NCBI RefSeq assembly: GCF_000723185.1 | Contig: NZ_CBTY010000009.1 | Location: 124,001 to 188,000, forward strand | From: Candidatus Nitrosotenuis uzonensis | Lineage (GTDB): Archaea; Thermoproteota; Nitrososphaeria; Nitrososphaerales; Nitrosopumilaceae | Direction: 5' to 3' | Length of the DNA: 64,000 bases | Shown: piece after piece, positions 19,274 to 33,648 of the stretch | How the letters are laid out: each line of letters begins with the position of its first letter | How positions within the stretch are numbered: the first letter of the stretch is position 1 | Made by a program: the position numbers and the translations under genes | Notes under the pieces: model-generated | Database searches by the model: none | What the model saw: only the letters and a program-made list of their open reading frames with translations | What the model was told of the DNA's origin: nothing

Positions 19274-20461
19274 ATGAAACAAAAAGCAGTACTTGCTTTT
19301 TCAGGTGGCCTTGATACTTCTGTCGTTGTAAAATATCTACAAGAAGAGCACAATATGGATGTGATAACGGTCACGGTAGATGTAGGTGAGGGAAGCGACC
19401 AGAAAAAAATTGCTGCAAAAGCAAGACATCTTGGCGTTCTGCGACACTATAACATTGATGCAAAAAAAGAATTTGTTGAAAAATTTATTCATCCGGCCAT
19501 AAAGGCAAATGCCCTCTATCAGAAAAAGTACTGTCTTGCAACATCACTTGCAAGACCACTGATTGCGCAAAAAGTCTTAGAGGTTGCTAAAAAAGAAAAG
19601 GTCAGCGCACTTGCGCATGGTTGTACTGGAAAGGGTAACGATCAGGTGCGATTTGATGTCACCTTTGGCTCCGGTTCCAACCTTCCAATAATTGCGCCCA
19701 TCAGAGATTTGAATTTAGATAGAGCAACAGAGCTGGAATTTGCAAACAAACACGGCATTCCAATTGATAGCGTATCAAAAAAATTCTCAATTGATCAGAA
19801 TTTATGGGGCAGGGCAATAGAAGGAGGAAACCTAGAAGACCCATATGCAGAGCCGCCAGATGATGCGTTTATCTGGGTAAAGACAAAGAACCTACCAGAT
19901 AAACCGCGATATATGGAAATTGAATTTGAAAACGGTGTCCCAGTCTCAATCGATAAGAAAACATTGAATCCGGTAAGACTAATCGAGTATGCGAACCAAG
20001 TAGCAGGAGCAAACGGTGTAGGAATTGTCGATCACATAGAAGACAGAGTAGTAGGCATAAAGTCGCGAGAAGTGTACGAAACACCAGGCGCCATGTGCAT
20101 AATAGAGGCACATTCAGACCTTGAAAAAATGGTACATACAAAGCACGAAAACAAGTTCAAAAGCATAGTGGACCAAGAATGGGCTTGGCTTGCATATTCA
20201 GGATTGTGGCAGGACCCGCTAAAGCGAGACCTTGACAAGTTCATAGACCAGTCACAAAAGACAGTCACTGGAATTGTCAGGTTAAAGCTTTACAAAGGAG
20301 GATTGCGTGTAGTAGGCAGAAAATCAAAGCACTCACTATACAGACACGACATTGCAACTTATGGCAAGGGATCTGCATTTGATCAAAGAAAGGCCACAGG
20401 CTTTGTTGAGTTGTGGGGACTGCAGACAACAGAAGCTAATAAATTAGCAGACAAGAGGTGA
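19274..20461 (+). CDS. argG: argininosuccinate synthase
   Basis: This 395-aa enzyme condenses citrulline and aspartate with ATP. The PP-loop pyrophosphatase motif AFSGGLDTS is at residues 8-16, with further family blocks HGCTGKGNDQVRFD and EGGNLEDPY. It opens the arginine/lysine cluster, and its stop overlaps a GTG codon in front of LysW, so it is probably co-transcribed with the LysW genes. This suggests that the first LysW-LysX set serves arginine at least in part. Confidence 0.95.
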   Translation: MKQKAVLAFSGGLDTSVVVKYLQEEHNMDVITVTVDVGEGSDQKKIAAKARHLGVLRHYNIDAKKEFVEKFIHPAIKANALYQKKYCLATSLARPLIAQKVLEVAKKEKVSALAHGCTGKGNDQVRFDVTFGSGSNLPIIAPIRDLNLDRATELEFANKHGIPIDSVSKKFSIDQNLWGRAIEGGNLEDPYAEPPDDAFIWVKTKNLPDKPRYMEIEFENGVPVSIDKKTLNPVRLIEYANQVAGANGVGIVDHIEDRVVGIKSREVYETPGAMCIIEAHSDLEKMVHTKHENKFKSIVDQEWAWLAYSGLWQDPLKRDLDKFIDQSQKTVTGIVRLKLYKGGLRVVGRKSKHSLYRHDIATYGKGSAFDQRKATGFVELWGLQTTEANKLADKR

Positions 20462-20472
20462 AAAAGATCGTA

Positions 20473-20640
20473 ATGAATTGTTTAGAATGTGATGCAACAA
20501 TCAACATCCCAGATGATGCAGCAGTTGGAGAGATAGTTTCATGTCCAGAATGCGGAGCCGACTTTGAAATAGCAAAGAAGAATGGTTCCAATGTAGAACT
20601 AAAGCCAGCGGAAAGCGTCGGAGAAGACTGGGGAGAATAG
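20473..20640 (+). CDS. lysW: LysW amino-group carrier protein, copy 1
   Basis: The 55-aa acidic carrier has two zinc-binding Cys pairs (MNCLEC, VSCPEC) and the canonical C-terminus VGEDWGE. In the LysW pathway the gamma-carboxyl of the last Glu is joined to the alpha-amino group of alpha-aminoadipate or glutamate, protecting it through the later steps. I chose ATG 20473, which gives the same length as copy 2 and lies 12 nt after GAGGTG. A GTG at 20458 overlapping the argG stop is the alternative. LysX begins immediately after the stop. Confidence 0.93.
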   Translation: MNCLECDATINIPDDAAVGEIVSCPECGADFEIAKKNGSNVELKPAESVGEDWGE

Positions 20641-21498
20641 TTGGCCAAGGTCTGCATCGTATTTGATAGACTCAGATTAGAAGAAAAGATGCTTGAGGAT
20701 CAAGCATCCAAGATGGGTCACAACACCATCGTAATAGATGCCAAGATAACCCAGATGAGTACTGAGACTAGAAGGTCAGACATTGATTTTGGCGACGTAG
20801 TTCTTGAACGCTGCGTAAGCTACTATCGTGGGCTCCATTTTACAGCCTGCCTTGAGTTCCTAGATGTCCCAGTAATTAACACACACCAAGTCGCAGAAGT
20901 GTGTGGAAACAAGATGGTGACCTCACTTTTGTTAAAAAAACACGGTGTTCCCACGCCAAAGACATACTTTGCATTCTCCTCAGAGGAGGCAATGAGGATG
21001 ATCGAAAAGCTTGGCTACCCCATAGTAATCAAGCCGATAATAGGCAGTTGGGGAAGAGGAATATTGCCATTACGTGATAAGGATACCACTGAAGCAATAA
21101 TAGAGATGCGAGACATTGAGGACGGCTCGCACGATAGAATTTACTATCTTCAAGAAATGATAAAGAGGCCGCCAAGAGACATACGTGCCATAACTGTAGG
21201 CGATCAGGTAGTTGCGGCAATGTACAGAAAGTCGCAGGGCGACTTTAAGACAAACATCGCACTAGGAGGCGATCCTGAGATTTGTGAAGTGACAAAAGAA
21301 ATGGAGGACTTGTGTCTGAAGGCATCAAAGGCAGTAGGCGGTGGTATTTTGGGCATCGATCTGATGGAGGATGACAGTCGCGGCTTGGTAATCCACGAAG
21401 TGAATAATACTGTCGAATTCAAAGGTCTGGCGCGAGTTGCAAAAAAGAACATTCCAGAAGAAATGATAAAGTTCGCCTTGAACTACATTAGAAAATAA
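20641..21498 (+). CDS. LysX/ArgX-type ATP-grasp ligase, copy 1
   Basis: The 285-aa RimK-like ATP-grasp enzyme ligates alpha-aminoadipate (LysX) or glutamate (ArgX) to the C-terminal Glu of LysW. Visible blocks are VLERCVSYYRGLHF, VIKPIIGSWGRGI and the metal-binding HEVNNTVEFKG. The start is TTG, abutting the LysW stop. A paralogue lies at 26437. Two copies suggest one for lysine and one for arginine; position next to argG hints that this one is ArgX, but sequence alone does not prove it. Confidence 0.9.
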   Translation: MAKVCIVFDRLRLEEKMLEDQASKMGHNTIVIDAKITQMSTETRRSDIDFGDVVLERCVSYYRGLHFTACLEFLDVPVINTHQVAEVCGNKMVTSLLLKKHGVPTPKTYFAFSSEEAMRMIEKLGYPIVIKPIIGSWGRGILPLRDKDTTEAIIEMRDIEDGSHDRIYYLQEMIKRPPRDIRAITVGDQVVAAMYRKSQGDFKTNIALGGDPEICEVTKEMEDLCLKASKAVGGGILGIDLMEDDSRGLVIHEVNNTVEFKGLARVAKKNIPEEMIKFALNYIRK

Positions 21499-21525: not shown

Positions 21526-22581
21526 ATGTTAAGAGTAGGAGTAGTTGGAGCATCAGGATATGTTGGCGGAGAGATGCTACGCCTTTTAGTTACACACCCA
21601 AAAGTAGAGATCACCATGGTGACATCAAGACAGTATGTCGGTGAGTATCTTCACAGAGTCCAGCCAGCTCTTAAGGGATTTACAGAACTTACATTTTCAG
21701 AGTTAGACTATGATAAAATGTCAGATAAATGTGATCTTGTGTTTACCGCAGTTCCACATGGCACAGCTACTGAGATTGTCAAAGCTCTTTACGATAGAGG
21801 GCTTAAGGTAGTAGACCTTTCTGCCGACTATAGGCTTCACAATCAGGAAGGATACACAAAATGGTATGGGTGGGAACATCCACATCCAGAATACTTGGCA
21901 AAATCAGTCTTTGGAGTTCCAGAGCTGCACAGAGAGAAAATCAGAAACGCCCAGCTTGTATCTTGCCCAGGATGTATGGCGGTAACTTCGATGCTTGCCC
22001 TTGCGCCTCTTGTAAAAAACAACCTAATCGATACAGAACACATAGTAGTCGACTCGAAGATTGGCTCCTCTGGAGCAGGAGCTGGGAGCGTTGCAGGCAC
22101 GCACCATGCAATGCGCTCAGGTGTAATCAGGCCATACAAACCGGCAAAGCACCGACACACAGGAGAAATTGAGCAAGAGCTAAGTGAGATTGCAGGAAAA
22201 AAGATCAAAGTTTCAATGAGTCCTCATGCAGTAGATATTGTAAGGGGCATATTGTGTACCAATCACACTTTTCTTACAAAAGACATAACGGAAATAGAAT
22301 TGTGGCGGGTCTACCGTGAGATGTACAAAGAGGAAAGATTCATCAGGCTCATACGTGACAAAAAGGGACTGTACAAGTTTCCAGATCCCAAGTTTGTCGT
22401 CGGCTCTAATTTCTGTGACATAGGATTTGATATTGATGAGGACAATCACAGACTTGTTGCGCTATCTGCTTCAGATAACTTGATGAAAGGTGCAGCAGGC
22501 TCTGCCATACAGAATATGAACATAATGGCAGGCTTTGACGAAATGGATGGGCTAAGATACTCACCGCTTACCCCTGTTTGA
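21526..22581 (+). CDS. lysY: LysW-aminoadipyl/glutamyl phosphate reductase (LysY/ArgC)
   Basis: The 351-aa NADPH-dependent reductase converts the LysW-bound acyl phosphate to the semialdehyde. It shows VGASGYVGGEMLRLL at the N-terminus, the active-site Cys in VSCPGCMA, and the GSSGAGAG loop. There is one copy for two ligases, so it presumably serves both lysine and arginine routes. It is 27 nt downstream of LysX copy 1. Confidence 0.92.
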   Translation: MLRVGVVGASGYVGGEMLRLLVTHPKVEITMVTSRQYVGEYLHRVQPALKGFTELTFSELDYDKMSDKCDLVFTAVPHGTATEIVKALYDRGLKVVDLSADYRLHNQEGYTKWYGWEHPHPEYLAKSVFGVPELHREKIRNAQLVSCPGCMAVTSMLALAPLVKNNLIDTEHIVVDSKIGSSGAGAGSVAGTHHAMRSGVIRPYKPAKHRHTGEIEQELSEIAGKKIKVSMSPHAVDIVRGILCTNHTFLTKDITEIELWRVYREMYKEERFIRLIRDKKGLYKFPDPKFVVGSNFCDIGFDIDEDNHRLVALSASDNLMKGAAGSAIQNMNIMAGFDEMDGLRYSPLTPV

Positions 22582-22585
22582 GCAA

Positions 22586-23386
22586 ATGATTACAATCAAA
22601 ATTGGTGGAAGTGTAGTAGAAAATCTTCATCCATCCACCATACAAGACATAAAAAAAGTTGCAGAAAGTGAGGGAGTAATACTTGTTCATGGCGGCGGCA
22701 AGGAGGTAACAAAGACTTGCGAGATGCTAGGTAAAGAGCCAAAGTTTGTTGTATCACCTAGCGGAATTAAATCACGATACACGGATAAGGAGACAGCCGA
22801 GATCTTTACCATGGTCATGTCAGGCAAGATAAACAAGACCATAGTTCAGATGTTGCAAAAAAATGGCGTAAACGCAATAGGCTTATCCGGAGTTGATGGC
22901 AAGGTCTTCATGGCAGAAAGAAAAGATAAGCTGGTCATCATAAATGAGAAAGGACGAAAACAAATGATTGATGGCGGATACACAGGCAAGGTCACAGAGG
23001 TAAACGGCGCGCTCCTAAAGATGCTACTAGATAATGGATATACCCCGGTAGTATCACCGATTGCATTAAGCAAAGAATTCGACCTGTTAAACATAGATGG
23101 AGACAGGGCTGCTGCAAATGTGGCAGGGGCAATAAAGAGCGATAAGATCTTGTTTTTGACCAATGTTGACGGTCTTTTAATGAATGATAGACTGGTACAA
23201 AAATTAACAAATGCAGAGGCAAAGGAAATAAGACCCAAGGTGGGCTTTGGTATGGAAAAGAAGATACTTGCGGCAACGGAGGCACTTGATATGGGCGTCA
23301 TGGAAGCATTGATTGCAAACGGCCAGCGAGAAAATCCTATATCCTCGGCAATTTCTCATCAAAACTGCACGGTAATTTCAAAATGA
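22586..23386 (+). CDS. lysZ: LysW-aminoadipate/glutamate kinase (LysZ/ArgB)
   Basis: The 266-aa amino-acid kinase phosphorylates the side-chain carboxyl of the LysW-bound substrate. It has IKIGGSVVE at the N-terminus, VHGGGKEV (phosphate loop) and NIDGDRAAANVAGA (ATP region). It begins 4 nt after lysY, and its stop overlaps the aminotransferase ATG (ATGA), indicating translational coupling. Confidence 0.93.
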   Translation: MITIKIGGSVVENLHPSTIQDIKKVAESEGVILVHGGGKEVTKTCEMLGKEPKFVVSPSGIKSRYTDKETAEIFTMVMSGKINKTIVQMLQKNGVNAIGLSGVDGKVFMAERKDKLVIINEKGRKQMIDGGYTGKVTEVNGALLKMLLDNGYTPVVSPIALSKEFDLLNIDGDRAAANVAGAIKSDKILFLTNVDGLLMNDRLVQKLTNAEAKEIRPKVGFGMEKKILAATEALDMGVMEALIANGQRENPISSAISHQNCTVISK

Positions 23387-24573
23387 GTGAAGATGATTTT
23401 CTTGGTAGCCTCTACCAAAGGTTCCCAGTGACAGTTGAAAAAGGATTAGGATCAAGAGTCTGGGACATCAACGGAAAAGAATACATTGACTGTATGGGTG
23501 GATACGGTGTTGCCCTAGTTGGTCACAGAAATCCAAGAGTTGTCGCGGCAATAAAATCCCAAATTGATAAGATAATTACAGTCCACACGTCATTGTACAA
23601 CAAGACTCGTGAGGAATTTTTAGAAAATCTCATCAAGGTAGCACCGAAGGGGCTCACAAATGTCCACCTTGGAAACAGTGGAGCCGAAGCAGTTGAAGCT
23701 GCGATAAAGTTTGCAAGAAAATACACTGGCAAGTCAGGAATGATCGCAATGAACGGCTCGTATCATGGAAAGTCGATGGGGGCGCTATCTATCACGTTTA
23801 ATCCAAAGTACAGAAAATCATTCATGCCGCTTGTAGAAAAGGCAGTATTTTCTCCTTTTGGCGATATCGAAACACTACGCTCAAAAATAGACAAGGATAC
23901 TGCATTTATCATAATGGAGCCCATACAGGGCGAGGGAGGGATACACGTTGCACCAGATGGATTCCTCCAACAGGTTCGCAAGCTCTGTGATGAAAACAGA
24001 ATTCTCCTTATATTTGACGAAATTCAAGCAGGATTAGGCAGAACAGGCAAAATGTGGGCGTGCGATCACTGGAGTACGGCCCCAGATATAATGTGCCTTG
24101 CAAAAGGTATAGCAGGCGGAGTTCCAATGAGTGCAACTCTTGTAAAACCAGAGATACTTGCTGCAATGAGTAAGGGTGAACACTCATCCACTTTTGGCGG
24201 CAATCCACTATCATGCGCCGCAGGGGTTGCAACACTGCAGGCTCTAACACAGGATGGCCTCATCGAAAATGCGGCCAAAGTAGGCAAAACATTCAGGGAA
24301 GGACTTGAACGGCTAAAAGAAAAACACAGCATCATACGCGATATACGGGGAAAGGGACTGATGATTGGAGTAGAGATGAAATTCGAGGTAAAAGACATAT
24401 TGTTTGACGGCATTTCAGAAGGAGTCCTGCTGTTATACTCAGGACGCAACATACTCAGGCTGCTGCCACCACTTGTCACTTCAGAGGATGACGTTAACAA
24501 AGTATTAGAAGTACTAGACAGATTATTTGCTAGAGAAACGGAGAGAAAAAAGAATGTACAAGGACAAGATTGA
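23383..24573 (+). CDS. lysJ: LysW-aminoadipate/glutamate semialdehyde aminotransferase (LysJ/ArgD)
   Basis: The 396-aa class III PLP aminotransferase converts the LysW-bound semialdehyde to LysW-lysine or LysW-ornithine. It carries GNSGAEAVEAAIK, the GSYHGKS loop, IFDEIQAGLGRTG and the PLP lysine in LAKGIAGGVP. Its start overlaps lysZ by 4 nt, and its end overlaps the regulator gene by 20 nt. Confidence 0.93.
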   Translation: MSEDDFLGSLYQRFPVTVEKGLGSRVWDINGKEYIDCMGGYGVALVGHRNPRVVAAIKSQIDKIITVHTSLYNKTREEFLENLIKVAPKGLTNVHLGNSGAEAVEAAIKFARKYTGKSGMIAMNGSYHGKSMGALSITFNPKYRKSFMPLVEKAVFSPFGDIETLRSKIDKDTAFIIMEPIQGEGGIHVAPDGFLQQVRKLCDENRILLIFDEIQAGLGRTGKMWACDHWSTAPDIMCLAKGIAGGVPMSATLVKPEILAAMSKGEHSSTFGGNPLSCAAGVATLQALTQDGLIENAAKVGKTFREGLERLKEKHSIIRDIRGKGLMIGVEMKFEVKDILFDGISEGVLLLYSGRNILRLLPPLVTSEDDVNKVLEVLDRLFARETERKKNVQGQD

Positions 24574-24973
24574 TGATGAAATAATCAGGATCCTAAAAGA
24601 GGACTCTAGAGAGTCTTTTGTAGATATCGGAAAGAAGCTAAAGCTTTCCGAATCAGCTGTGAGACGAAGGGTAAAGAACCTTATTGACGGCCAGATAATC
24701 AAAAAATTCACAGTTGAAATAGGCGAGCAGAACTCTACAAAGGCAATCGTTCTAATCTCAGTCGAATCGTCGATGGATACATCCAAAGTATCAACCAAAC
24801 TTACCAAGCTTGAAGGAATAAAGACAGTCTATGAGATAACAGGACAATATGATATTGCAGTCATTCTTTCGGCCCCAAACATAACTGAAATAAATGGTTC
24901 AATTGATCAGTTGCGAAAGGTGCCGGGTGTTTCAGACACCAACACTGTAATCATATTGCGCGAAGTTGTTTAA
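24554..24973 (+). CDS. Lrp/AsnC-family regulator, LysM-like
   Basis: The 139-aa protein (from ATG 24554) has an N-terminal winged helix (DEIIRILKEDSRESF ... SESAVRRRVKNL) and a C-terminal RAM/ACT-type effector domain (VLISVESSMDTSKV ... VIILREVV). It sits between the lysJ and lysS transcription units, like LysM of Sulfolobus, which regulates lysine genes. Regulation of this cluster by lysine or arginine is the obvious inference. It overlaps lysJ by 20 nt. A TTG 27 nt upstream would add only a charged non-homologous leader. Confidence 0.85.
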   Translation: MYKDKIDDEIIRILKEDSRESFVDIGKKLKLSESAVRRRVKNLIDGQIIKKFTVEIGEQNSTKAIVLISVESSMDTSKVSTKLTKLEGIKTVYEITGQYDIAVILSAPNITEINGSIDQLRKVPGVSDTNTVIILREVV

Positions 24974-25088: not shown

Positions 25089-26270
25089 ATGAACGATCCA
25101 AATTACTATGCCCACTTGTGGAACGAGTATGACAAAAAGCCAAGAAGAATACACGTGCTGGACAGTACTCTTAGAGAAGGCGAACAGCACCCAGGAGTGA
25201 CGTTTACCAACAAACAACGCATTCAGATTGCATGGATGTTAGATTATTTCGGTGTGGACCAGATTGAGATATCACCAGTGGTATCAGAAGACCACTTTGA
25301 GGCAACAAAGACAATCATAAAACAAGGCCTAAGAGCAGATATTGTGGCGCACGTACGCGCCCTAAAAGAGGATGTGGATGTTGCACTAAAGTGCGATCCC
25401 AAATGGACTGCCACATATCTTGGAATTTCAGACATTCACCTAAAGGACAAGCTGAGAATCACTCGCGAAGAGGCAATGCGACGAGCAGTAGAAACTGTCG
25501 AGTATGCAAAATCACACGGTCTGAAGATGAGATTCACTGTGGAAGACGGTAGTAGGGCAGACCCAGAGTTCTTGCTCAAAATATGCAAGGCAATAGAAGA
25601 GGCAGGGGTTGACAGAATTAGTTTACCAGACACAGTAGGAGTCATGAGACCAAAGGGCATGTACAACTTTGTAAAAATGGTAAAAGATAAGATCAAGGTA
25701 CCTTTGGATGTCCACTGCCACAACGACATGGGATTTGCACTTGCCAACGCATTTGCAGGAGTCGATGCAGGCGCAGACCAGATACACACCACAATAGACG
25801 GTGTGGGTGAAAGAACAGGCATTCCTGCGCTTGCAGAAGTAGCAGTTGCCATGACATATTTGTACAGATCTCCAAACGACTTTAGGCTCGACATGCTAAC
25901 TGATCTCTCAAAGCTGATAGAAGATTATACTGGAATAGTTCCATACGATTCAAAACCCATAGTAGGTCCTACCGCGTACAAGCACAAGGCTGGCACTCAT
26001 CTTGCTGCGATACTGAGAAACCCTGCGGCATATGAGCCGATTCCTCCAAGAGTGGTAGGAAACAGGCGGAGAATAGTCTTTGGCGAGCTTGCAGGAAAGA
26101 CAGGTTCTGCATATCTGATGTCGATTTTAGGCCTGGATAAGAACGATGAGCAAGCAAAAGCAGTAGCTCTTGGGCTTAAAAACCTCAGAATGGGGGATCT
26201 TTTGGAGATACCTCTGGACGGTAAGCTTGAAAGAAAGATAATTAATGACTCAAAGGGCAGTAATGAGTAA
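25089..26270 (+). CDS. lysS: homocitrate synthase
   Basis: The 393-aa enzyme condenses 2-oxoglutarate and acetyl-CoA to homocitrate, the entry step to alpha-aminoadipate. It belongs to the DRE-TIM superfamily: DSTLREGEQHPG (residues 25-36) with catalytic residues, the metal-binding VHCHNDMG, and GVGERTGIP. Homocitrate synthase is preferred over isopropylmalate synthase because of the HPG motif and the lysine cluster. LysW copy 2 begins 3 nt after the stop. Confidence 0.9.
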   Translation: MNDPNYYAHLWNEYDKKPRRIHVLDSTLREGEQHPGVTFTNKQRIQIAWMLDYFGVDQIEISPVVSEDHFEATKTIIKQGLRADIVAHVRALKEDVDVALKCDPKWTATYLGISDIHLKDKLRITREEAMRRAVETVEYAKSHGLKMRFTVEDGSRADPEFLLKICKAIEEAGVDRISLPDTVGVMRPKGMYNFVKMVKDKIKVPLDVHCHNDMGFALANAFAGVDAGADQIHTTIDGVGERTGIPALAEVAVAMTYLYRSPNDFRLDMLTDLSKLIEDYTGIVPYDSKPIVGPTAYKHKAGTHLAAILRNPAAYEPIPPRVVGNRRRIVFGELAGKTGSAYLMSILGLDKNDEQAKAVALGLKNLRMGDLLEIPLDGKLERKIINDSKGSNE

Positions 26271-26272
26271 CT

Positions 26273-26440
26273 ATGGCAAAATGTTCAGAATGTGACTCTG
26301 ATATTTCAATCCCAAAGGATGCTCTAGAAGGCGAGCTTGTAACTTGTCCTGATTGCGGTGCAAGCTTTGAGATTGTAAAATCTTCTGGCGGATTTGAGCT
26401 AAAACCAGCTCAGAGCGTTGGAGAGGACTGGGGTCAGTGA
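26273..26440 (+). CDS. LysW-like carrier protein, copy 2, with C-terminal Gln
   Basis: The 55-aa product aligns with LysW copy 1 along its length: Cys pairs CSEC and TCPDC, then FELKPAQSVGEDWG. The final codon before TGA is CAG, so it ends in EDWGQ and not EDWGE. The last Glu of LysW is the attachment residue in the characterised pathway, so this copy lacks the expected side-chain carboxyl. Only a single base (GAG to CAG) separates the two states. It begins 3 nt after lysS and overlaps the second LysX-like gene by 4 nt (GTGA). It may be non-canonical, modified after translation, or regulatory; a sequencing error cannot be excluded. Confidence 0.9.
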   Translation: MAKCSECDSDISIPKDALEGELVTCPDCGASFEIVKSSGGFELKPAQSVGEDWGQ

Positions 26441-27282
26441 GTCCCCCAATATCGGTTCTCTACGACACCATCCGACTTGAAGAAAAGGCCCTTGTCGAAT
26501 CTGCAAAGAAAAGGGGCATCAATATACAAATGGTAGATTGTAGGAACCTTGTAATCGATCTGGACAAAAAATCAGATTTCGGTACAGTCCTGCAAAGATG
26601 CGTTAGCTATTACAGAAACCTACACTCTACTGCAGCCTTGGAAGGAGCTGGTGCAAACGTGATAAACTCACTTCACACTGGCATCTATGCGGGAAACAAA
26701 TTGTTCACACACATGTTATTAAAAAAAGCTGGAATTAACACGCCGTATGTTACAGTTGCATTTACAAAAGAATCCGCACTTGAGGCACTTGATAGCCTTG
26801 GCTATCCGCGCGTGATAAAACCGACGGTTGGCAGTTGGGGTAGAATGGTAACTAAATTAAACAGCAAAGAGGCAGCCGAAGGCATCATCGAGGAAAGGGA
26901 AAAAATGTATCCGATTTATCAGATTCACTACTTGGAAGAGTTCGTCCAGAGGCCACCAAGAGACATAAGAGCAGTCGTCATAGGAGACAGCGTAGTAGGC
27001 GCTATCTACAGAAACTCTGGAGATGGCAATTGGAAGACAAACACGCATCTTGGTGGAACCGCAGAAGTATGCAAGGTGACACCTGAGCTTGAGGATATTT
27101 GCATAAAGGCAAAAAATGCTGTAAAGGGTCAGATAGTCGGAATTGATCTTATGGAAAGCACTGACAGAGGACTAGTAGTACACGAAATAAACAACACGAC
27201 TGAATACAGAAATGTTGCGCGCGTTACGGGCACGGATATAGCAGGCCTAATCTTAGAATACGCAGTAAATTCAGGAAAATAG
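26437..27282 (+). CDS. LysX/ArgX-type ATP-grasp ligase, copy 2
   Basis: The 281-aa paralogue of the ligase at 20641 has the same blocks: LQRCVSYYRNLHS, VIKPTVGSWGRM, FVQRPPRDIRAVV and the metal site HEINNTTEYRN. The start is GTG within the end of the LysW-like gene. Position behind homocitrate synthase suggests that it is the aminoadipate-specific LysX, while the argG-linked copy would be ArgX; this is inferred from context only. Confidence 0.88.
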   Translation: MSPPISVLYDTIRLEEKALVESAKKRGINIQMVDCRNLVIDLDKKSDFGTVLQRCVSYYRNLHSTAALEGAGANVINSLHTGIYAGNKLFTHMLLKKAGINTPYVTVAFTKESALEALDSLGYPRVIKPTVGSWGRMVTKLNSKEAAEGIIEEREKMYPIYQIHYLEEFVQRPPRDIRAVVIGDSVVGAIYRNSGDGNWKTNTHLGGTAEVCKVTPELEDICIKAKNAVKGQIVGIDLMESTDRGLVVHEINNTTEYRNVARVTGTDIAGLILEYAVNSGK

Positions 27283-27284
27283 AA

Positions 27285-28415
27285 ATGGACTCTTCATTTA
27301 CCATTACGCCAAGGTTTTCAATAAAGATACTGGAGAAGGCACTAAGACTATACACCCCGTCTCTTTCCGAGAAGCCGATGGCAGAATATCTTGCCGACAA
27401 GTGTGATGACTTGGGTTTTGAAAATATTCATACTGACGAAGTAGGCAACCTGATTGCACAGATAGGTTCAGGTTCTCCTCGCGTGTTGCTCTGCGGCCAC
27501 ATGGATACGGTTCCAGGTAAAATCAAGGTGAGAAAGGAGGGCGACTATCTATATGGCAGAGGTGCATCCGATGCAAAGGCACCATTAATTGCAATGCTTT
27601 TGGCAGCTGCAACGCTGCAAAAGAACAACGGAACGATAATCTTTGTTGGGGCAGTGGATGAGGAAGGAAACGCAACTGGAATCAAGAATCTTGCAAAGCA
27701 GAAACTGGACATCGATTATGCTGTATTTGGAGAACCGAGTGGGATAAGAAATGTCACAATAGCATACAAGGGAAGAATTGCGATAAACCTGAAAATAAAT
27801 GTAGGCGATTCTGCTCACGCTTCTGCTCCGTGGCTTGCTAAAAATGCAATAGAGGAGTCAATGAGATTCAGCCAGGAGTTAAAACACCATCTAGAAGAAA
27901 ATCAAGATGGTAAATCAAAAGGGATGATGCTCACATGCACCATCACCGAAGTAAAAGGCGGAGACAGTCACAATGTGACCCCGAAAGAATGCACTACCAC
28001 CATGGACATAAGAATTCCCGTTACCATGAACGTAAAGATGGTAGGAGAAAAGATTGCCTCCAAGGTAACAGATCTTGCAAACAAATACGGAGTAGAGGCA
28101 ATGTATTCTGTAATAGACGAGACTGAACCGTTTGAGGCTCCCATGAATTCGCCATTGGTACGCGCATTCACGCTAGGTGTGATGGAAGTTGAGCGTGCAA
28201 GGCCGGCGCTCATACGCAAGACTGGAACTGGAGACATGAACATCATAGGCTCCCTATGGAATGTACCAGTTGTAACGTATGGTCCTGGAGATCCTCACGC
28301 ATCACATACAATAGATGAACGCGTGTCCATGTCAGAATTTCTGCGCGGAATTGAGGTAATCAAAAACACACTACACCACCTTAAGCGACTGCACGATTCG
28401 AAAAAAGATAGCTGA
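27285..28415 (+). CDS. lysK: LysW-lysine/ornithine hydrolase (LysK/ArgE)
   Basis: The 376-aa M20-family metallohydrolase releases lysine or ornithine from LysW. It has the metal-binding LLCGHMDTVPG and GRGASDAKAP blocks, the catalytic DEEGNATG and the C-terminal THHIDER-like SHTIDERVSM. It starts 2 nt after the LysX copy, and its last base is the first base of the diphthine synthase ATG. It is the last pathway gene of the cluster. Confidence 0.9.
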   Translation: MDSSFTITPRFSIKILEKALRLYTPSLSEKPMAEYLADKCDDLGFENIHTDEVGNLIAQIGSGSPRVLLCGHMDTVPGKIKVRKEGDYLYGRGASDAKAPLIAMLLAAATLQKNNGTIIFVGAVDEEGNATGIKNLAKQKLDIDYAVFGEPSGIRNVTIAYKGRIAINLKINVGDSAHASAPWLAKNAIEESMRFSQELKHHLEENQDGKSKGMMLTCTITEVKGGDSHNVTPKECTTTMDIRIPVTMNVKMVGEKIASKVTDLANKYGVEAMYSVIDETEPFEAPMNSPLVRAFTLGVMEVERARPALIRKTGTGDMNIIGSLWNVPVVTYGPGDPHASHTIDERVSMSEFLRGIEVIKNTLHHLKRLHDSKKDS

Positions 28416-30277: not shown

Positions 30278-30556
30278 TCAGATGATTTTAACTCCGTTCC
30301 AAAACGCCACATAGTTTTTGATCTGCTTTGCTGCGTCAGTTGGCTCCTCATAGTACCAAGCACAATCCTTGTTAGTCCTATCTGCAACCTGAACAGAGTA
30401 ATAACTTGCAACCCCCTTCCAACCACATATTGTCTTTGTCTCTGATTTTTTGAAAAACTCTGGTTTTATCGAATCGGGCGGAAAGTAGTGATTGCCTTCA
30501 ACTACTATTGTCTTCTCACTTTCTGCCAGTACAACACCATTCCAAATTGCCTTCAT
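30278..30556 (-). CDS. DUF427 family protein
   Basis: The 92-aa protein matches DUF427 along its length: KAIWNGVVLAESEKTIVVEGNHYFP, followed by CGWKGVASYYSV and the C-terminal YVAFWNGVKI. The biochemical role of DUF427 is not established. Its ATG overlaps the EgtD stop by 4 nt, so it is co-translated with the histidine methyltransferase and may act in or near the same pathway. Confidence 0.85.
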   Translation of the reverse strand: MKAIWNGVVLAESEKTIVVEGNHYFPPDSIKPEFFKKSETKTICGWKGVASYYSVQVADRTNKDCAWYYEEPTDAAKQIKNYVAFWNGVKII

Positions 30557-31572
30557 TTTTTCAGTTCCTTTGAGAACAATGCTAGGGCAAAATAGTCTTG
30601 CTTGTCAGTCCAGATGCTCTTTATTTCAAATCCAGCCTTCTTGGCCATAGTTCGTATCTGAGATATAGTGTATTTGTATGAATATTCAGTACAGATCCTC
30701 TCTCCTGCTCTAAAGTTGATTGTCATTCCAATATCTTGTATGCTTACTTGCTGTTCTGCTTTTGATTCTAGATACATCTCTATTCTTTTTGCTTGCAAGT
30801 TATAGATAGCCACGTGCTCAAATGAGTCGATATCAAAGTTTCCACCAAGCTCGTCATTTATTCTGCATAGTAGGTTAAGATTGAATTGTCTTGTGATGCC
30901 CTCAGAATCATTGTACGCGCGCTCAAGTATTTCTTTGTTTTTTACTAAATCTATTCCAAGAAGGAAAAGATCTCCTTTATTCATAGCGAGGTTGACTTTT
31001 TTGAGGAATTCTGTGGCTTCAGCATGATCAAAGTTTCCTATGCTAGACCCAAAAAACACTATGAGTTTTTTTCCAGAAATGTCCCTGATGTAATCAAGCC
31101 CATTCTCATATTGGTCGACTATGCCAGTTATGTGTAGATTATCAAATTCATCTTGTAACCTCTGACTACTTTCCCTTACGATGTCGGAGATATCAATTGG
31201 ATAGTATTCTATTCTTTGATGAAGTAAAGAAAGAGTCTCAAAAATATGTCTTGTCTTTGTTGCAGCACCACTTCCCAGCTCTACTACCATGTTATGTCCG
31301 TCAAGGTGCTCCAGAAGGTCTTTGTTGATTTCAGACAGAATCTGCATCTCTTTTTTTGTCAAATAGTATTCTGGAAGATCACATATTTTATCAAATAGGT
31401 ATGAACCGTTCTTATCGTAAAAGTACTTTGAATGGATAAACTTGTTTTTCCTGCTCAGACCGTAGGCAATATCTGCGCTGAAATCATTAGAGTGCAAAGT
31501 GTTCGACTTTACAATAAAGCAGTTCGGCGCAAGTTGAACCTTGGTGTATTTGTTTTGTATTTTTGATCTCAT
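30553..31572 (-). CDS. egtD: L-histidine N-alpha-methyltransferase, EgtD-like
   Basis: The 339-aa SAM-dependent enzyme makes hercynine (trimethylhistidine) from histidine. Family blocks seen are YYLTKKEMQIL, VVELGSGAATKTRH (SAM site), FFGSSIGNFDHAEA, and TRQFNLNLLCRINDELGG with substrate-binding residues. It is divergent from EgtB with 106 bp between starts. Together they give the core of ergothioneine synthesis. Confidence 0.9.
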   Translation of the reverse strand: MRSKIQNKYTKVQLAPNCFIVKSNTLHSNDFSADIAYGLSRKNKFIHSKYFYDKNGSYLFDKICDLPEYYLTKKEMQILSEINKDLLEHLDGHNMVVELGSGAATKTRHIFETLSLLHQRIEYYPIDISDIVRESSQRLQDEFDNLHITGIVDQYENGLDYIRDISGKKLIVFFGSSIGNFDHAEATEFLKKVNLAMNKGDLFLLGIDLVKNKEILERAYNDSEGITRQFNLNLLCRINDELGGNFDIDSFEHVAIYNLQAKRIEMYLESKAEQQVSIQDIGMTINFRAGERICTEYSYKYTISQIRTMAKKAGFEIKSIWTDKQDYFALALFSKELKK

Positions 31573-31678
31573 AAGCTATTTTTATGGAAATATTCCCATT
31601 CCGTGTTTTAAAAATCTTCTATAAGTCCAAATCAGATCTGATGGAAACACATGAATATTAAAAACAAGTTTCAGTATC

Positions 31679-32971
31679 ATGCTTGCCACGTACTCTATTG
31701 TAGACAAATTCAAGTCGCTGAGAGCAACCACGCTGCAAATCGTATGCCCACTAGAAAAAGATGACTATACGGTACAAACTGCTCCGTATGTAAGCCCACC
31801 AAAGTGGCATCTTGGGCATGTCAGTTGGCTCTTTGAGAAGATTTTAGAGCAAATAGACAAGGATTACAAGATCCATGACGTGACATTCTCAAAATATCTG
31901 AATTCTTATTATAATAAATTTGGAGAGCAACATGATAAGGCAAGCAGGGGGGCTGTCTCAAGGCCAACTACAGAGCAAATACAAAGATATTATGATCTCA
32001 TCACGCAAAAAATTATCACATTTCTAAATACGGTGCATCTTGATGCCTCAACTGAAAAGATAATCGAGCTTGGAATACACCATGAATACCAGCACCAAGA
32101 GCTTTTAGTGTACGATTTGCAGCATATTTTGGCTGAAAAATACAACCCTAAGATAAGAAATCGACGTGATGATGTTCTGTCGGTAAAACAAAAACAGATC
32201 CATATAGAGGGAGGCATCTACAATCTTGGATATTCTGGCAAAGAATTCTGTTACGATATTGAGCTTCCAGAGCACAAAGTCTACCTAAATGAGTACAAAA
32301 TAGATGCCTTTCCTGTAACTGCAGGACAGTACATGGAGTTTATCGAGTCAGGAGGGTATGATGACCACAGATACTGGCTCTCGGACGGCTGGAATGCAGT
32401 ACGAAAAAATGGATGGACTGCTCCAATGTACTGGTACAAACAAGACGGCAAGTGGCACATCAACGACTTTCTTGGCTCTCGCATTGTAGACCCATCAGAG
32501 CCAGTATGTCATGTTAGCTATTACGAGGCTGACGCCTACTGCAAATGGGCTCAAAGGCGCCTTCCGACAGAGGCAGAGTGGGAAAAGGCAGCTTGCTGGA
32601 ATGAAGAAAGGCAGATCAAAACTGTGTTCCCATGGGGCGATGACTCTCCTTCTGGGAATCATGCAAACCTGCTAGAATCATACTTGTGGGGCCCGTCCAA
32701 AATAGGTTCATTCCCACAAGGTGCAAGTCACTATGGGTGCCATCAGATGATAGGCGATGTTTGGGAGTGGACATCATCCGAGTTTGTTGGATACCCGGGG
32801 TTCAAGTCAGGATTTTCCGAATATAATGATAAATGGTTTACCAATCAAAAAGTGCTCAGAGGTGGATCCTTTGCAACTCCAAGAGATTCCATTCGTGCAA
32901 GTTATAGAAACTTTTTCAGACTAGATGAGAGATGGCTCTTCTCAGGATTTAGGTGCGCAGATGACGTCTAG
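31679..32971 (+). CDS. egtB: EgtB-like iron-dependent sulfoxide synthase
   Basis: The 430-aa protein has an N-terminal DinB-like helical domain with the iron ligands (WHLGHVSW; HX3HXE in HHEYQHQE) and a C-terminal formylglycine-generating-enzyme-like domain (AYCKWAQRRLPTEAEWEKA, FRCADDV). EgtB enzymes join a thiol donor to hercynine oxidatively. No EgtA (gamma-glutamylcysteine ligase) or EgtC gene is adjacent, which would fit use of cysteine directly. A TATA-like GAATATTAAAAAC lies about 25 nt before the ATG. Its 3' end overlaps the convergent riboflavin kinase by 4 nt. Confidence 0.9.
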   Translation: MLATYSIVDKFKSLRATTLQIVCPLEKDDYTVQTAPYVSPPKWHLGHVSWLFEKILEQIDKDYKIHDVTFSKYLNSYYNKFGEQHDKASRGAVSRPTTEQIQRYYDLITQKIITFLNTVHLDASTEKIIELGIHHEYQHQELLVYDLQHILAEKYNPKIRNRRDDVLSVKQKQIHIEGGIYNLGYSGKEFCYDIELPEHKVYLNEYKIDAFPVTAGQYMEFIESGGYDDHRYWLSDGWNAVRKNGWTAPMYWYKQDGKWHINDFLGSRIVDPSEPVCHVSYYEADAYCKWAQRRLPTEAEWEKAACWNEERQIKTVFPWGDDSPSGNHANLLESYLWGPSKIGSFPQGASHYGCHQMIGDVWEWTSSEFVGYPGFKSGFSEYNDKWFTNQKVLRGGSFATPRDSIRASYRNFFRLDERWLFSGFRCADDV

Positions 32972-33648
32972 GATACAGGTATTGTGATAGTTATTCTGTC
33001 GCCGTTTTTGAGTCCTGTCTTTTTACGTATGTCAAACTCGGATATTAGCTCAGCCACGGAAAGATCATGATGCGTCCTCTCAAGAAATATCAGGTTGCAT
33101 GGAATCTTGCCGTTCAAAGTGCATGAGTAACATCTAACCCAGCCATATGTACGCTTTCCGTCAGAGAACCCGTCGATCTGCTTTCCAGGCATGTTGTTCA
33201 CCTGGCGCAGGGATTCAATGTGCTCTTTTTTTTCAATTTTGATATTTAGCGTACCCGGAAATGGTACATATCCTATCTTTGTTTTGAATTGTTTTGTGTA
33301 TCCTTTTAGCGACATATAGTATGCTCCTTCACCCATCCCCGAAACCAATATGCCGCCAATTTCAATCTCAGATGGACTTGACTCAAGGCTGTTTTTTATC
33401 AGATTGTACATGTCTGCAATCTGGTCATAACCTTTCTTGGTCAGCTTTACAGATATCTTCCTGCCAGACATCATTCTCTGTATTAACCCACCCTCTTCTA
33501 GTTCTAAAAGATGCTTTGATGCTGCCTGTTGAGATTTGTGAATATTCTTTCCAAGAGACGAAGTTGTAATTGAAATAAAATTGTGTTTGGCTCCTTTTGA
33601 TAGGAGCTCAGTTAACGTTATCAGATGTTGGATTTTCAGCTCAGACAT
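32968..33648 (-). CDS. ribK: CTP-dependent riboflavin kinase with N-terminal winged helix
   Basis: Residues 1-85 form a winged-helix DNA-binding domain (SQQAASKHLLELEEGGLIQRM). Residues about 95-226 are the archaeal cradle-loop riboflavin kinase: GGILVSGMGEGAYYMSLKGY, GYVPFPGTLNI, CNLIFLERTHHD. It phosphorylates riboflavin to FMN with CTP. The fused HTH suggests that the protein may sense flavin and regulate genes (RbkR type). It is 5 nt downstream of dnaG on the same strand. Confidence 0.9.
   Translation of the reverse strand: MSELKIQHLITLTELLSKGAKHNFISITTSSLGKNIHKSQQAASKHLLELEEGGLIQRMMSGRKISVKLTKKGYDQIADMYNLIKNSLESSPSEIEIGGILVSGMGEGAYYMSLKGYTKQFKTKIGYVPFPGTLNIKIEKKEHIESLRQVNNMPGKQIDGFSDGKRTYGWVRCYSCTLNGKIPCNLIFLERTHHDLSVAELISEFDIRKKTGLKNGDRITITIPVS

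Follow-up and report, generated by a model that had tools for sequence, protein, structure and literature searches.

A LysW carrier protein encoded with a C-terminal glutamine in ammonia-oxidizing archaea: conservation, partner enzymes and a possible maturation step

The stretch of DNA considered here (64 000 nucleotides of Candidatus Nitrosotenuis uzonensis, family Nitrosopumilaceae; contig NZ_CBTY010000009.1, positions 124 001 to 188 000; 'the window' in what follows) contains a cluster of lysine and arginine biosynthesis genes with two genes for the small carrier protein LysW, the second of which (lysW2, 26273–26440, plus strand) encodes Gln at the C-terminal position where LysW proteins bear their substrate on Glu. 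Many archaea, among them nearly all ammonia oxidizers of this family, encode Gln in the lysine carrier, and cells in which a Gln-ended LysW is the only carrier must either convert the Gln or load the protein by an undescribed route. The LysW route is the presumed path of lysine and arginine synthesis of these archaea, and its central residue had been taken as fixed. On balance, we think it probable that LysW2 is a working carrier of the lysine branch, translated as a Gln-ended pro-form that would undergo a single conversion to the Glu form or else lose its amide when first loaded by the LysX2 ligase.

The encoded C-terminus of LysW2 and its conservation

LysW2 is a 6-kDa protein of 55 amino acids (MAKCSECDSDISIPKDALEGELVTCPDCGASFEIVKSSGGFELKPAQSVGEDWGQ) with the tail GEDWGQ. 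Its Gln codon, CAG (26435–26437), is followed by the stop codon TGA (26438–26440), and the GTG start codon of lysX2 begins on the last base of CAG (26437), the two genes overlapping by 4 bases. LysW1, with an ATG start at 20473 (longest open reading frame, 20458–20640), ends in GEDWGE (codons GAA TAG), so that the two full LysW genes with different tails described in an earlier, sequence-only reading of the window are confirmed by open reading frames and codons. Both proteins keep all four zinc-ribbon Cys residues (in LysW2, the pairs CSEC and CPDC) and pass the archaeal LysW/ArgW model NF041070 (94 bits for LysW2 and 92 bits for LysW1; cut-off, 75) as well as PF21344 (50 and 53 bits for the two window copies, 50.4 for LysW2; cut-off, 27); neither reaches the equivalog cut-off of TIGR01206. 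The closest solved relatives of LysW2 (LysW of 3vpb, 3wwl and 5k2m) each end in Glu. The substrate-bearing C-terminal Glu, a defining feature of LysW/ArgW, is absent from LysW2 as encoded, with Gln in its place, and likewise from its relatives. Judged from its sequence, LysW2 is a LysW-family protein that lacks the chemical defining feature of the family, hence a variant of LysW, and the earlier claim that newly translated LysW2 cannot enter the standard γ-carboxyl chemistry stands, the attachment Glu being encoded as Gln.

Pattern scans covered 300 Thermoproteota genomes, 44 of them from the window's family. EDWG-Gln-stop was found in 64 genomes (one of them, G069, by chance) and EDWG-Glu-stop in 197. 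Within the family, 42 of the 44 genomes have exactly one of each, the exceptions being G288, with Glu twice, and G111, with Gln twice. The lysX2-linked copy is the Gln copy at every family locus read; close relatives that all end in Glu, the case named beforehand as decisive against an unusual LysW2, were not found, Gln being present in 17/17 genomes of the genus and in seven more genomes of the family with the locus retrieved (named public loci include those of Nitrosotenuis, Nitrosarchaeum, Nitrosotalea and Cenarchaeum). The terminal codon is CAG, with CAA rare (L021 and L067, which are one genome, and L104). The expectation that the lysS-linked copy always ends in Gln thus holds for the family and fails beyond it, where in several other lineages of Nitrososphaeria the lysX2/lysS-linked copy ends in Glu (L023, L029, L030 and L056–L071). 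On the tree of family LysX2 proteins, a single change falls on base 1 of the Gln codon, compared with at least eight on base 3 of the Gly codon next to it, and by this codon-level measure the Gln of lysW2 is maintained by selection.

Several trivial origins of the Gln were considered and discarded. A sequencing error at the end of lysW2 is ruled out by dozens of independent assemblies that agree on the residue, and a pseudogene by the intact frame, the Cys pairs, the operon context and the one versus at least eight base changes, in agreement with the earlier view that the gene is not dead. The overlap with the lysX start does not force Gln, as GAG is found in lineages with the same overlap (L023, L056–L071 and L084) and Gln is found without the overlap in G171 and in families f25 and f30.

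The two exceptional family genomes deserve a separate description. G288 (L121, 6436–6603) provides a natural contrast, with Glu in the lysS-linked copy and unchanged LysX2 motifs. In G111 (L123, 7433–7606; L122) both LysW proteins end in Gln, and lysW1 lies apart from argX, which is on another contig. A further detail of the lysW2 gene is the Glu51 codon (26423–26425), the third base of which is G in 34/34 family loci while adjoining sites vary; the invariant G may contribute to the start of lysX2 translation.

Genomes in which the Gln-ended LysW is the only carrier

In 16 of the 300 genomes the scans matched EDWG-Gln but not EDWG-Glu (a second Gln match in G031 and the match in G069 were recognized as chance sequence and removed), and a profile search with PF21344 for a hidden second LysW in the Gln-only genomes returned none above cut-off. 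The 12 that were checked for ligases contain two strong LysX/ArgX proteins each, 23 of the 24 passing the TIGR02144 cut-off and the exception, in G163, falling short by 0.4 bit. Three of the 16 are single-contig genomes, namely G031, G171 and G055 (1,680,938 bp). In the complete G031 genome (2,836,447 bp) the operon of the window recurs as argG-argX-lysY-Z-J-M-S-lysW(Gln)-lysX-lysK, without lysW1 between argG and argX; both ligase genes are kept, with LysW-Gln as the sole carrier. G171 (1,297,538 bp) is a putative Ignicoccus hospitalis, which is autotrophic and whose lysine synthesis has been assigned to the aminoadipate pathway (PMC2614490); its LysW is Gln-only, and the sole LysW of the sister genome G130 ends in Glu.

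Genomes that retain the ligases and have no LysW other than LysW-Gln make it very probable that this protein functions as a carrier and is not a dead copy or a mere helper, and they lend indirect support to a predicted loading of LysW2 with aminoadipate or glutamate. If the Gln-only cells make lysine or arginine by the LysW route, their Gln-ended LysW must be usable. The earlier suggestion that LysW2 acts as a helper of the adjacent LysX paralogue is argued against by G031 and the 15 other Gln-only genomes. A separate case is locus L088 (G144), where a 334-residue LysX-like protein, in which GSWGR was not found by pattern, lies beside a Gln-ended LysW; another LysW of this genome ends in Glu.

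Alternation of Glu and Gln and the partner enzymes

Among 89 LysX proteins with an adjacent LysW, the carrier ends in Gln in 51 cases and in Glu in 38, and in nothing else. The LysX tree requires at least 11 changes between Glu and Gln, nine of which are forced by well-supported branches. Sister species may differ (G171 with Gln versus G130 with Glu), and both residues occur within one genus (Gln in G163 and G186; Glu in G139, G192 and G100). No third terminal residue was seen among the matches listed, and the 20 matches outside known LysW that were read were all chance; a rare third residue may occur beyond those matches, and LysW tails without EDWG, the scan having covered tails with it, may also exist. 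One-step changes of GAG/GAA lead equally to Lys, Ala, Gly, Val and Asp, none of which was seen. A search of plasmids gave four LysW records only, all bacterial.

GSWGR and the other conserved and active-site positions of LysX are alike in the partners of Gln- and Glu-ended carriers, and in the G171/G130 and G019/G288 pairs the LysX motifs are identical with opposite terminal residues. By taking into account the usable sister contrasts (seven for LysX, six for LysK, four for LysJ, two for LysZ and one for LysY), no LysX column was found to track the terminal residue, none differing in more than 5/7 contrasts, and nothing consistent was seen in LysK, LysZ or LysJ. One LysK column differing in 6/6 contrasts was set aside as a variable position with no common change. 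An identical mature carrier in Gln and Glu lineages would lead one to expect such unchanged partner enzymes.

Gene cluster of the window and substrate branch of the two ligases

The genes of the cluster are all on the plus strand in the order argG-lysW1-argX-lysY-lysZ-lysJ-lysM-lysS-lysW2-lysX2-lysK, with lysS immediately 5' of lysW2:

20473–20640, plus: lysW1, carrier ending in Glu (NF041070, 92 bits; terminal codon GAA)
20641–21498, plus: lysX1 (argX), ligase (TIGR02144, 306.7 bits, above cut-off; ArgX-type, glutamate, signature VEFKGL)
21526–22581, plus: lysY/argC, reductase common to both branches (TIGR01850, above cut-off)
22586–23386, plus: lysZ/argB, [LysW]-aminoadipate/[LysW]-glutamate kinase (NF010662, 307.7 bits; cut-off, 194)
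23383–24573, plus: lysJ/argD, aminotransferase (TIGR00707, above cut-off)
24554–24973, plus: lysM, Lrp-type regulator (NF040947, 181.7 bits; cut-off, 180)
25089–26270, plus: lysS, homocitrate synthase-like (TIGR02146, 385 bits, under the cut-off of 413.6; PF00682, PF22617)
26273–26440, plus: lysW2, carrier ending in Gln (open reading frame; NF041070, 94 bits; cut-off, 75; PF21344)
26437–27282, plus: lysX2, RimK-type ATP-grasp ligase (TIGR02144, 315.6 bits; cut-off, 275.6; GSWGR; LysX-type, aminoadipate, signature TEYRNV)
27285–28415, plus: lysK, [LysW]-lysine/ornithine hydrolase, M20 peptidase (TIGR01902, 274 bits; cut-off, 163)

The substrate of these ligases is set by two signature residues, which are Asn-Thr for aminoadipate (Sulfolobus LysX) and Gly-Phe for glutamate (ArgX), and the GSWGR motif of the ligases recognizes the EDWGE tail (PMC10433800). 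The two positions were placed after EFK by comparison with solved sequences (EFKGF in Sulfolobus tokodaii ArgX, 3vpb; EFKNS in Thermus thermophilus LysX; EFKNA in Thermococcus kodakarensis LysX), and the window ligases read EFKGL in LysX1 and EYRNV in LysX2. From these motifs, the Glu carrier is paired with a predicted arginine-type ligase and the Gln carrier with a predicted lysine-type ligase. In Sulfolobus a single LysW serves both branches, and in Natrinema the E54A exchange in argW abolishes arginine synthesis and makes the strain an arginine auxotroph (PMC10433800), so that the terminal Glu is needed.

Proposed maturation of LysW2 and alternative readings

A ligase of the LysX kind, being an ATP-grasp enzyme, activates a carboxylate. 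Because of this, and because the E54A exchange abolishes arginine synthesis, the simplest account of the Gln end is a pro-form. LysW2 would be made with terminal Gln, which would then be converted a single time to Glu, or would lose its amide nitrogen by trans-amidation when LysX2 first loads the carrier, the end result being the same. The ordinary cycle would follow, with γ-linked aminoadipate passing through LysZ, LysY and LysJ and release by LysK; as this release leaves Glu, the carrier would stay in the ordinary cycle after conversion. LysK is a candidate, and the likeliest one, for the converting enzyme, since it is encoded by the next gene and already hydrolyses an amide on the same γ-carbon; a slow side reaction could suffice because each carrier molecule is reused many times. 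A LysK-family (TIGR01902) gene scores above cut-off in 8/8 genomes checked, six of which lack a Glu-ended LysW. Thus, from the encoded Gln, its conservation, the Gln-only genomes with their ligases, the switching, the lack of a third residue and the unchanged partners, all of which are observed, we infer both the conversion and the enzyme that performs it. Of the options left by the sequence-only reading, deamidation and some other way of charging, both stay in consideration, and the former is favoured: no residues of the ligase or of the enzymes acting after it were seen to co-vary with the terminal residue, which speaks for conversion to the ordinary Glu form.

Some results weigh against this maturation. 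No amidase-family gene was seen among the ten neighbours scanned in the Gln-only clusters, and no deamidase is in evidence there; a homologue of Pup ligase/Dop (PF03136) was found in 0/8 genomes, with the positive control detected, and CheD is absent from 5/6 Gln-only genomes checked, so that Dop/PafA and CheD are unsupported as general converters. The missing covariation is itself negative evidence from few contrasts (six to seven for LysX and LysK, four for LysJ, two for LysZ and one for LysY). Furthermore, a plain conversion of Gln to Glu gives no obvious reason for selection to retain Gln in lysW2 alongside Glu in lysW1 of the same cell throughout the family.

The last point would be met by loading on the main-chain carboxyl of the terminal Gln by LysX/ArgX, after the manner of other RimK-type ligases and with the side chain never altered, an unlikely option but the main alternative. 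LysX belongs to the RimK-type family, which includes ligases named α-L-glutamate ligases, and retention of Gln with no other residue would be accounted for if the enzymes read the side chain. However, LysZ, LysY, LysJ and LysK, which also serve the Glu-ended carrier of the window genome, would meet a point of linkage displaced by two carbons, and neither ligase nor downstream enzymes show a change that follows Gln or Glu, even between sister species. In its full form, with Gln never converted and glutamate and aminoadipate both loaded on the α-carboxyl, so that one carrier family has two linkage chemistries, the proposal is if anything slightly less likely; ammonia oxidizers with both copies would then have both chemistries in one cell, which would separate the lysine and arginine carriers. 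It is less probable again that, in two-copy genomes, LysW2-Gln cannot be loaded and, as a mimic with a permanent cap, serves to hold or regulate LysX2, both substrates being carried by LysW1-Glu. This would be in keeping with the joint retention of both copies in 42/44 family genomes, with the lysW2/lysX2 overlap and its probable co-translation, and with the single LysW of Sulfolobus serving both branches (PMC10433800), but G031 has no carrier other than the orthologous Gln copy, the carriers of a further 15 sampled genomes all end in Gln, and in G288 the lysS-linked copy ends in Glu with the lysX2 motifs unaltered. Finally, we regard it as very improbable that Glu and Gln are neutral alternatives, every LysW-bearing cell having a converting activity and the family conservation reflecting slow change: the many independent switches and the unchanged enzymes agree with it, whereas the single change at the first base of the Gln codon versus at least eight at the adjacent four-fold site, and the retention of Glu in lysW1 of the family, do not.

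Other genes in the window

Downstream of the cluster (30553–32971), a gene for a histidine-specific methyltransferase (PF10017, EgtD-like, minus strand) is divergent from a DinB/FGE-sulfatase gene (EgtB-like, plus strand), an arrangement that suggests, from domain content, ergothioneine-type synthesis in this archaeon. At 32968–33648 a CTP-dependent riboflavin kinase domain (PF01982) is encoded with a possible N-terminal winged-helix part.

Comparison with known systems

No mention of a Gln-ended LysW was found in the open papers on LysW, many subscription papers lying outside the search. The published metabolic model of N. maritimus names a single LysW gene (PMC6038301), which marks a gap in current metabolic models.

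LysW2 resembles the LysW/ArgW proteins of Thermus, Sulfolobus, Thermococcus and Natrinema in the zinc ribbon with its four Cys, the EDWG tail, the LysX neighbour, the gene cluster and a score above the curated cut-off, and the partner ligase that such carriers require is present as lysX2, with GSWGR and intact active-site positions. It differs in that the studied cases bear the substrate on the γ-carboxyl of the terminal Glu, whereas LysW2 encodes Gln (PMC10433800). RimK, MptN and CofF belong to the same ligase superfamily as LysX, but are named for α-L-glutamate ligation and not for carrier loading. The AmCP (Vzb22) of Streptomyces and the PEARL carrier peptides are small carriers, too, with amino-acid chemistry performed at their C-terminus (PMC9303977), but AmCP is described with a C-terminal Glu and PEARL loading is tRNA-dependent, both unlike LysW2.

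A precedent is given by Pup, which some actinobacteria encode with Gln that is deamidated by Dop, an enzyme that also cleaves the isopeptide bond; other species encode Glu, and where Gln is encoded its conversion to Glu has to come first (PMC8599861). The alternation of Gln and Glu is shared by LysW, with at least 11 switches, and LysK, which cleaves the matching bond of the LysW system, would by analogy take the part of Dop. However, LysW is an unrelated protein, no Pup ligase/Dop homologue is present in the eight genomes searched, and its conversion is inferred only. A Gln-encoded carrier in abundant ammonia oxidizers would thus imply either a maturation step, as a second Pup-like case, or a second way of loading LysW.
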